Shown here: positions 14,345 through 16,439 of the stretch, one piece after another
Position numbering within the stretch: position 1 is the stretch's first letter
How the letters are laid out: every line of letters begins with the position of its first letter
Assembly (NCBI GenBank): GCA_947630665.1
Contig: CANRID010000017.1
Coordinates: 1 to 46,053, forward strand
Reading direction: 5' to 3'
From: an uncultured Bacteroidales bacterium
Lineage (GTDB): Bacteria > Bacteroidota > Bacteroidia > Bacteroidales > UBA932
DNA length: 46,053 nucleotides
Notes under the pieces: generated by a model
What the model saw: only the letters and a program-made list of their open reading frames with translations
What the model was told of the DNA's origin: nothing
Databases searched by the model: none
Position numbers and translations under genes: made by a program

Positions 14345-15490
14345 TTATTTCATCTCCAACTCTTTCTCGATTTCTTCAATTGTAGGCAAGTTACCTCGGA
14401 AATCTTTAGGCAAGGCCTGTCCTAATTCATAGTCGGAAATTCCTATCGGTTTCTGGATATCACGCAAGGCATATTCGGCTTTGATACGGTCTTTGGTCTT
14501 GCAGAGCAAAAGCCCGATTGTGCGGTTATCTCCTTCACGGCAAAGTATGTCATCTACAGCGGAACAATAAAAGTTGAGCTTGCCGATATATTCCGGCATG
14601 AACTCGGTATCTTTCAACTCAATCACCAGATAGCGATGCAGGAAAGTATTGTACATCAAGATATCTATGTAATAGTCATCTCCCGACACTTCAATGTGAT
14701 ACTGACGTCCCATAAAGGCGAACCCGGCTCCCATTTCAATGAGAAACTTTTCTACATGCTTGACCAAACCTATCTCCACATCACGCTCATTGTACTGGTC
14801 TGTGAAAGTCAGCATGTCGAATATGTACGGGTCTTTAAGCATTGACTTTACATTGCTCGCTTCGGGTGCAGACAGGGTCTCGGTGAAATTATTGGCCAAT
14901 GCCCCATGTTTGCCATAATGATCAAGTCTGATTGCGTCTTGTAGATAGCGTTTATTCCAATGGGATGTAATACATTGCACCATATACCAATACCTTGCCC
15001 GTATATCCTTAACCTGCTGCAAAAGTATCAGGTTATGCGTCCAATCCAAATGTTTGATGGGGAGAGTGAAATTATAACTGTCCAATTGCGAAATCAGTGA
15101 TTTCGCAATTGGCTTTGATGGTTTGTTGAATTGCGCAACCAGTGGTTGCACAATTGAGGAAGCATCATCTTTTACCATCGTCAGTTCCTGATTGTATTCA
15201 TTGAAGAACTGCATCATGCATTGCATATTACGCACGGAGAAGCCTTTTATTTCAGAGTAGTCGTTTTTCAAATCCACTGCCAGCCGCTGCAAGGTCTTCT
15301 TGCCCCATCCGTCGGTCTCCTGACTTTGTTGCAGCATTTCGCCAATGTCCCAATACATCCGCAGCATCTCCTCATTGGCGGCATAAATCGCACGTTGTTG
15401 TGCAAGTAATACTCTTTGCTTGATCTGACGGAGTAATTTCGCATAACCGCGGAAATTATCCGTTAAAGTCTCATTTACTTGAACATCCAT
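14345..15490 (-). CDS. DUF1016/YhcG-type PD-(D/E)XK nuclease domain protein
   Basis: A 381-residue protein of the YhcG family. The N-terminal DUF1016 region (about 8-190) has the usual helical start LLRQIKQRVLLAQQRA and MYWDIGEML, and a W-T-H-N-L-I-L-L-Q-Q-V-K-D stretch. The C-terminal half (about 220-360) is a PD-(D/E)XK nuclease fold, with D-D-Y-Y-I-D-I-L-M-Y-N followed by Y-L-V-I-E-L-K-D giving the catalytic Asp and E-x-K. Family members are often accessory genes near restriction-modification loci, but none is seen here. The linker near residues 111-136 contains two peptide repeats (IVQPLVAQF and IAKSLISQL) encoded by striking DNA palindromes. It has its own promoter. Biological role not established. 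Confidence 0.9.
   Translation of the reverse strand: MDVQVNETLTDNFRGYAKLLRQIKQRVLLAQQRAIYAANEEMLRMYWDIGEMLQQSQETDGWGKKTLQRLAVDLKNDYSEIKGFSVRNMQCMMQFFNEYNQELTMVKDDASSIVQPLVAQFNKPSKPIAKSLISQLDSYNFTLPIKHLDWTHNLILLQQVKDIRARYWYMVQCITSHWNKRYLQDAIRLDHYGKHGALANNFTETLSAPEASNVKSMLKDPYIFDMLTFTDQYNERDVEIGLVKHVEKFLIEMGAGFAFMGRQYHIEVSGDDYYIDILMYNTFLHRYLVIELKDTEFMPEYIGKLNFYCSAVDDILCREGDNRTIGLLLCKTKDRIKAEYALRDIQKPIGISDYELGQALPKDFRGNLPTIEEIEKELEMK
15082..15112 (-). repeat. Perfect 31-nt palindrome inside the DUF1016 gene
   Basis: Arms CCAATTGCGAAATCA and TGATTTCGCAATTGG are exact reverse complements over 15 bases with one central base (15097). It encodes P-I-A-K-S-L-I-S-Q-L. It is paired with a similar element 14 bases away at 15127-15157. 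Confidence 0.9.
15127..15157 (-). repeat. Second 31-nt palindrome inside the DUF1016 gene (imperfect)
   Basis: On the minus strand the arms are TCAATTGTGCAACCA and TGGTTGCGCAATTCA around one central base. They pair at 14 of 15 positions, counting one G-T pair. It encodes S-I-V-Q-P-L-V-A-Q-F and agrees with the neighbouring palindrome at 23 of 31 positions, with three compensated pairs. Confidence 0.85.
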
Positions 15491-15553: not shown

Positions 15554-15595
15554 GGAAGAAGGAGCTGTTCCGCATTGAGAACAACTCCTTCTTCC
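15554..15595 (-). terminator. Hairpin after lpxA, probable terminator of the efflux-lpxA operon
   Basis: Arms GGAAGAAGGAGCTGTTC and GAACAACTCCTTCTTCC pair at 16 of 17 positions around an 8-base loop. It lies 64 bases after the lpxA stop. The flank on the minus strand is AT-rich but not a clean T-run, so termination strength is uncertain. Confidence 0.65.
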
Positions 15596-15659: not shown

Positions 15660-16439
15660 CTACATCGAGGTCCCGATAATTCCCCGCTCGGAACTTTCTA
15701 TGAACCGGAGCAGGTATTCTATGGCCGGACTCATCGGGATCAATTCCTTTATATTGAGCAAGGCATTTTCCACGCTTGTACCGCTCTGATAGACCTGGCG
15801 GTAACATTTGGCGATATTATCCACAATCTCTTCGCTGAATTGTCCGCTCTTGTTCAGCAGGATCGCATTCACTCCATAATAGGTAATCGGATTGTGGGCC
15901 GCCACGATAAACGGAGGCACATCCTTGCTGGCCCGGCATCCGTCCCTCACCAGCGTCCAGCCTCCGATATGACATCCGTGCTTAATGATTACGCCGCTAC
16001 CCAATATGGCCTGATCGTCTAAAATACAGTTGCCGGCAGTCTTGGCCCCGTTCCCCAGTACGCAATTATTACTGATACGGGTATCGTGCGCCACATGCAC
16101 GCCTTCCAGAAGAAAATTTCCGTTGCCTATCACGGTTTTACCTCCATAGTAAGTCGCCCGGTTCACGATCACTTTTTCCCGGATGACATTATTGTCCCCG
16201 ATCTCCAGCTCCGTGGAATCGCCCGTAAACTTAAAATCCTGGGGAGTGGCGCCCAAAATCGCACCCTGATACACGATGTTGCCCTTTCCCATGCGGGTTC
16301 CGCTCAGAATGCTCGCATAAGGCATTATAGTACAATTATCGCCGATTTCCACATTTTCGTCGATATAAGCGAAAGGATGAATGGTAACGCCATCTCCTAT
16401 TTTCGCATCCGGATTTACAAAAGCTAAAGGACTTATCAT
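15660..16439 (-). CDS. lpxA: UDP-N-acetylglucosamine O-acyltransferase (lipid A synthesis, first step)
   Basis: A 259-residue acyl-ACP-dependent enzyme that puts a 3-hydroxyacyl chain on the 3-OH of UDP-GlcNAc in the cytoplasm. The first 190 residues are hexapeptide repeats forming a left-handed beta helix (for example IGDGVTIHPFAYIDENVEIG), and the C-terminal 70 residues form the helical cap. The catalytic His118 is in GVHVAHD (E. coli His125 in HIAHD), and the substrate region GATPQDFKFTGD is intact. Only 22 bases separate it from the outer-membrane efflux gene, so it seems to be the last gene of the efflux operon. The usual neighbours lpxD and the lpxC/fabZ fusion are absent. Confidence 0.95.
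   Translation of the reverse strand: MISPLAFVNPDAKIGDGVTIHPFAYIDENVEIGDNCTIMPYASILSGTRMGKGNIVYQGAILGATPQDFKFTGDSTELEIGDNNVIREKVIVNRATYYGGKTVIGNGNFLLEGVHVAHDTRISNNCVLGNGAKTAGNCILDDQAILGSGVIIKHGCHIGGWTLVRDGCRASKDVPPFIVAAHNPITYYGVNAILLNKSGQFSEEIVDNIAKCYRQVYQSGTSVENALLNIKELIPMSPAIEYLLRFIESSERGIIGTSM

Follow-up and report, generated by a model that had tools for sequence, protein, structure and literature searches.

DUF1016/YhcG nuclease genes carry within their coding sequence a palindrome that the encoded protein is predicted to recognise

A number of described systems couple a DNA-acting protein with a palindromic or resident site. parS, the palindromic site of ParB, is said to lie inside the B. 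subtilis spo0J gene itself. Homing endonucleases, including those of the PD-(D/E)XK type, are sequence-specific nucleases with a long, near-palindromic target, which the gene normally interrupts, while the C proteins of type II restriction systems limit a nuclease through a palindromic operator that lies upstream and is read by a regulator that is a separate protein. RepC, a replication initiator unrelated to DUF1016, is not known to carry a nuclease. In repABC plasmids oriV is located within the repC coding sequence (PMC9040568), and Rickettsia palindromic elements are described as dispersed in-frame palindromes of about 100-150 nt in many genes (PMC4316617). Here these systems are compared with a DUF1016/YhcG nuclease gene of an uncultured Bacteroidales bacterium (assembly GCA_947630665.1), located on the 46,053 nt of contig CANRID010000017.1 that were analysed as a whole and are referred to as the window. 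For DUF1016_N, the available text of Kosinski 2005 assigns no structure or function (PMC1189080), and deletion of E. coli yhcG is reported to be synthetic-lethal with weak dnaB, dnaN and parE alleles (PMC2672614).

The linker of this DUF1016_N and YhcG_C domain protein encodes two palindromes in frame. As judged from the sequences compared, such a palindrome is conserved as a palindrome throughout the family, and there is co-variation between its bases and the residues that begin DUF1016_N helices, so that site and protein appear to change together in evolution. We are highly confident, on this comparative ground, that the palindrome in a DUF1016/YhcG gene is recognised by the very protein which that gene encodes.

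The two 31-nt palindromes with 15-base arms, 14 bases apart, were found where the first-pass annotation, made from the letters of the window, had placed them (Table 1). Their agreement at 23 of 31 positions is likewise confirmed, as are the pairs changed on both sides (1/31, 10/22 and 13/19, the latter two corresponding to half-site positions -6 and -3); pair 8/24 is T-G on the coding strand and 2/30 is the sole pair lost. Scored as matched pairs minus twice the mismatches, palindrome 1 is the top-scoring palindrome of the whole 46-kb window, where ten dinucleotide shuffles give on average 0.7 palindromes with a score of at least 10, 0.2 with at least 13 and none with at least 15. The protein lies well above the Pfam cut-offs (115.8 versus 32.8 bits for DUF1016_N, 211.6 versus 32.5 bits for YhcG_C), and its AlphaFold model has a predicted local distance difference test value (pLDDT) of 81.8 and a predicted template modelling score (pTM) of 0.62.

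For a family-wide survey, 447 DUF1016 loci were assembled from genus relatives, phylum searches, relatives, viral contigs, E. coli and pattern-match regions. The phylum search contributed the listed loci and 40 other matches (109 of 296 genomes positive), the named loci 80 of 559 relatives found, the phylum of Herbaspirillum 30 loci (36 of 200 genomes positive) and the DUF1016_N relatives 30 listed and 60 other matches (188 of 297 genomes positive); among these relatives, genomes G602, G713 and G744 each hold 13-14 DUF1016_N matches. After exclusion of genes without both linker anchors, 368 distinct proteins were reduced to 319 below 90% identity. A linker palindrome with a score of at least 8 is present in 283 of these 319 genes versus 14.4 after synonymous-codon shuffling, with 240 versus 6.6 genes at a score of at least 9 and 122 versus 0.6 at 12 or above (five rounds). 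Palindromes scoring at least 10 occur at 7.8 per kb in the linker versus 0.08 per kb in the remaining open frames. Linker length ranges from 14 to 93 amino acids; a score of at least 8 is reached by 148 of 174 short linkers of up to 20 amino acids (null 6.7) and by 135 of 145 longer ones (null 7.7; three shuffle rounds each). The minimal linker is thus mostly the palindrome, and long linkers often hold further in-frame copies. The set includes an archaeal gene, from a metagenome-assembled genome, with two linker palindromes scoring 9.

In the source genome, which has seven YhcG_C matches, and in its genus, most full-length DUF1016 genes show a palindrome at the same place just before the W-x-H motif, mostly differing in sequence and in encoded peptide. 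Homologues thus keep the palindrome and lose the peptide, the reverse of the pattern that the first-pass annotation had named as speaking against its proposal of selection at the nucleotide level, a proposal which the synonymous-shuffle null and the homologues support. Core identity is 0.81 within genes (62 pairs) versus 0.42 between genes, and 104 of 171 half-sites are distinct. A paralogue in the window's own genome (L006, on C18) has no linker palindrome scoring at least 9; its open frame is preceded, at a distance of 121 nt, by a 28-nt even palindrome. In the model, part of the linker peptide is helical, and 252 of 255 odd palindromes have their centre at the first codon position, as might be expected if the palindrome were a by-product of coding a repeated amphipathic helix; as synonymous shuffling abolishes the palindrome and the same core is also found outside coding sequence (L050, L084, L085 and the 3' side of the E. 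coli gene), we give this explanation next to no credence.

For the 222 of 319 genes whose linker holds an odd palindrome scoring at least 9 (effective number 27), mutual information was calculated between the bases of the half-site and those columns of the protein that lie outside the linker. The strongest pairs are position -7 with column 85 (z 12.2), -3 with 133 (9.6), -8 with 88 (8.0), -3 with 162 (7.4), -5 with 89 (6.5) and -2 with 163 (6.1); other columns ahead of the nuclease domain reach up to 4.1 and none in the nuclease domain exceeds 3.1. R at column 85 goes with G at -7, R or K at 162 with C at -3 and R or K at 163 with C at -2, and the tables agree with the familiar side-chain/base chemistry of Arg with G (or with C, G being on the opposite strand), Glu with C, and Asn or Gln with A. 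Among close homologues of YhcG, residues 85 and 88 correspond to bases as R,E to G,C; Q,W and A,A to C,T; A,R and Q,Q to C,G; and R,T to G,T, with L176 and L184 as exceptions. With 107 disjoint pairs four of the named contacts top 2493 tests, the fifth, -6 with column 72, not being a named contact.

The pairings also transfer between distant proteins. When bases were predicted from proteins less than 35% identical, with genes lacking two distant partners that share the residue excluded (hence the smaller numbers), columns 133 and 162 gave the correct base at -3 in 103 of 108 genes, the nearest homologue below 35% identity in 36; columns 162 and 163 did so at -2 in 80 of 82 (nearest such homologue 51). 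The corresponding values are 154 of 184 (77) at -7, 150 of 172 (85) at -5, 110 of 169 (79) at -6 and 101 of 191 (49) at -4. In a scan of all usable columns, 287-292 for each position, no other column equals column 85 for -7 or column 89 for -5. Palindrome 1 of the window fits this code with R87 and G at -7, T151 and T at -3, L154 and A at -4, and R181 and C at -2.

Several observations go against parts of the code. Transfer fails at -8, with 65 of 142 correct versus 84 for the majority base and no column that helps. At -4, -3 and -2 the gain from some non-contact columns is similar to that from single contact columns; part of the signal at these positions is thus clade structure, and this all-column control slightly lowered our confidence in self-recognition. 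In palindrome 1, K180 with T at -3 and Q90 with C at -8 do not fit; genes with K at 162 and T at 133 have C at -3 in five of six cases, the sixth being the window gene, the palindrome 2 of which does have C at -3, as K180 predicts.

The first-pass annotation had offered three explanations for the hairpin-like repeats, of which a target for the protein's own nuclease domain came closest: the own protein as reader stands, the co-varying residues being located in DUF1016_N and not in the nuclease domain. A self-regulating mRNA structure, or a hairpin of single-stranded DNA, in the linker that controls translation, decay or frameshifting is very improbable. Perfect inverted repeats would indeed fold in the mRNA and paired changes are present, but the sense strand shows no G-U tolerance (arm mismatches A-C/C-A 40 versus G-T/T-G 16, p=0.002), an excess that perhaps reflects selection against mRNA hairpins. 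Moreover, the centre-adjacent pair, which could not pair in an RNA loop, is complementary in 199 of 255 odd palindromes, a count to be read with the palindrome finder itself somewhat favouring complementary centres; there is no Rfam match at gathering score among 20 loci, and the bases co-vary with residues of protein helices.

Just as improbable is the third explanation, selfish in-frame palindromic elements of the Rickettsia type inserting in the linker by happenstance. It would accommodate the variable linker length, the one to three linker palindromes in the E. coli alleles fetched and the core of window palindrome 1 shared by genes L406 and L219 (26% identical). Against it, a search of the window's own genome for the window core, where the first-pass annotation had suggested to look for the same unit, gave no other occurrence at up to three mismatches. 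The commonest core, CAGACANTGTCTG, occurs 27 times in 18 of 26 other genomes (reversed control 3), with 20 matches inside DUF1016 open reading frames (ORFs), one about 115 nt from such a frame and six elsewhere without the outer arms; even linkers of 14-18 amino acids mostly encode a palindrome, and its sequence follows the protein. Near the gene but outside the linker, palindromic copies with the same core are found 5' of the gene in 9 of 263 genes (control 1.3), elsewhere in the gene in 7 (control 0.3) and downstream in 3 (control 0.6). In genes L071, L152, L154 and L416 a second palindrome with the same core follows the linker, each time at the same point of the coding sequence, +450 nt from the domain anchor.

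The predicted fold of DUF1016_N of a homologue matches ParB/Noc/KorB best and, as modelled, resembles the palindrome-binding ParB/Noc fold, while the C-terminus resembles the nuclease EndoMS. Each DUF1016/YhcG protein would be a sequence-specific DNA binder with a nuclease attached. DUF1016_N, which is probably a helix-turn-helix domain of the ParB/KorB type that reads DNA through two elements, would bind the palindrome of approximately 25-27 bp, with outer AATT, a variable core and an odd centre, that the linker of its own gene holds in frame, most plausibly as a dimer on double-stranded DNA. With less certainty, the built-in site may be an operator that travels with the gene, where the bound protein would block elongation or initiation on its own gene and thereby keep a nuclease of harmful potential scarce wherever the gene lands. 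Of the nine 5' copies, six are situated just before the likely start codon, as expected of an operator; the own-gene recognition that characterises an autoregulatory operator was found by co-variation only. Overall we lean towards the palindrome as a portable putative operator, the plainest use of the site.

In E. coli, 4417 of 5426 genomes have a yhcG match, and the number of linker palindromes in the alleles fetched ranges from one to three, with three in tandem in K-12, a variation in copy number that the first-pass annotation had proposed to look for. Compared with the K-12-type L092, allele L095 (92% identical) has K,R replaced by R,W at columns 85 and 88 of the recognition helix, and its first palindrome also differs in three flank pairs, each on both sides. 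The second, third and 3' palindromes of K-12 ignore column 85, with G at -7 despite K. A further palindrome is found about 15 nt past the yhcG stop codon and, in K-12, another after gltD. Two fetched genomes without yhcG have gltD and nanQ separated by 67 bp with one perfect same-core palindrome (L268:380-412; L269). This 33-nt solo palindrome is matched, at least partly, in 5082 of the 5426 genomes, so that at least 665 match it without a yhcG match. In the truncated alleles L099 and L270 the breakpoint coincides with the edge of palindrome 3. From there on, in both alleles, the C-terminal half of yhcG gives way to a 470-bp segment (L099:1907-2376) containing an ORF with a transposase annotation; 722 of 5426 E. 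coli genomes match this segment.

These loci bear on the principal alternative, which assumes the same self-recognition for the purpose of cutting: the nuclease would act at or near the palindrome, attacking other gene copies or solo sites. Sibling mobile elements would thereby be excluded, empty sites would be entered by homing, or the gene would serve as a suicide switch directed at itself; the diversified specificities would then play the part of incompatibility groups. We consider this alternative possible, if doubtful. The catalytic D...(E/D)xK is intact in all 307 ungapped family members (12 of 319 are gapped), relatives occur on 463 plasmid records out of 72,556 as well as at 50 loci of viral contigs, the proteins match the PADLOC PDC-S02 models, and the diversified half-sites, the solo palindromes and the allele breakpoints at palindromes would all be in line with cutting. 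On the other hand, the own gene would be cut unless the enzyme is restrained, many genes have two or more sites in cis, and the solo palindromes observed are all at the yhcG locus and may equal deletion scars. A more tentative picture still is that of self-addressed nucleases, single-gene elements reading a built-in 25-bp barcode in their own coding sequence, on which the nuclease would act in trans, so that other copies or empty sites are excluded or converted; the barcodes would diversify in step with the recognition helices, as incompatibility groups do.

Table 1. Location of the nuclease gene, its palindromes and the co-varying residues in the window (HMM, hidden Markov model)
Feature	Position	Strand	Remarks
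DUF1016/YhcG nuclease gene, 381 aa	14345..15490	(-)	ORF; Pfam DUF1016_N 2e-33, YhcG_C 6.8e-63; AlphaFold model
Palindrome 1, perfect 15-bp arms, 1-nt centre, odd; codes (P)IAKSLISQL(D)	15082..15112	(-)	
Palindrome 2, 31-mer, 27-nt core 15129-15155; codes IVQPLVAQF	15127..15157	(-)	
DUF1016_N domain, residues 22-192, split by palindrome-coding linker	14915..15427	(-)	Pfam
R87, Q90, C91 (HMM columns 85, 88, 89), start of helix 86-121	15218..15232	(-)	columns co-vary with bases -7, -8, -5/-6
T151, L154 (HMM columns 133, 136), start of helix 150-159	15029..15040	(-)	columns co-vary with bases -3/-2 and -4
K180, R181 (HMM columns 162, 163), start of helix 180-188	14948..14953	(-)	columns co-vary with bases -3 and -2
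YhcG_C PD-(D/E)XK nuclease domain, EndoMS/NucS-like predicted fold; catalytic D276, E291, K293	14384..14845	(-)	

Between the DUF1016 gene and the ORF at 15660-16439(-), the window holds a strong inverted repeat with 17-nt arms (15554-15595, score 14), which may be a terminator.

With respect to its meaning, the analysis puts forward a function for DUF1016_N together with a DNA code that can be read. Since the predicted binding site can be taken from most of the genes themselves, the role of this very common family of nucleases (E. coli YhcG, PADLOC PDC-S02) becomes open to direct tests, with about a hundred distinct half-sites and their proteins as a natural library. A search of open-access literature brought up no earlier report of palindromes in DUF1016 genes, most subscription literature lying outside it.

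Among known systems, ParB, Noc and KorB with their parS, NBS and operator palindromes offer the best match for the predicted DUF1016_N fold and share the palindromic site. They differ in that the window protein has no ParB CTPase (ParB/Srx) domain, Pfam at E <= 0.001 giving only DUF1016_N and YhcG_C, and in that the DUF1016 protein is fused to a nuclease and has its site in its own gene in about nine out of ten members surveyed, with a sequence that varies from gene to gene. RepC and oriV share with DUF1016 a site inside the own coding sequence. Rickettsia palindromic elements are dispersed, whereas the DUF1016 palindromes are bound to one gene family and gene-specific. As with a homing endonuclease, a solo site is present in genomes without the gene, here the two yhcG-less E. 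coli, cutting of which is putative; unlike it, the DUF1016 gene keeps an intact palindrome inside its coding sequence and does not interrupt the site. In contrast to the C proteins, the putative regulator, the nuclease and the site are in DUF1016 one and the same gene.
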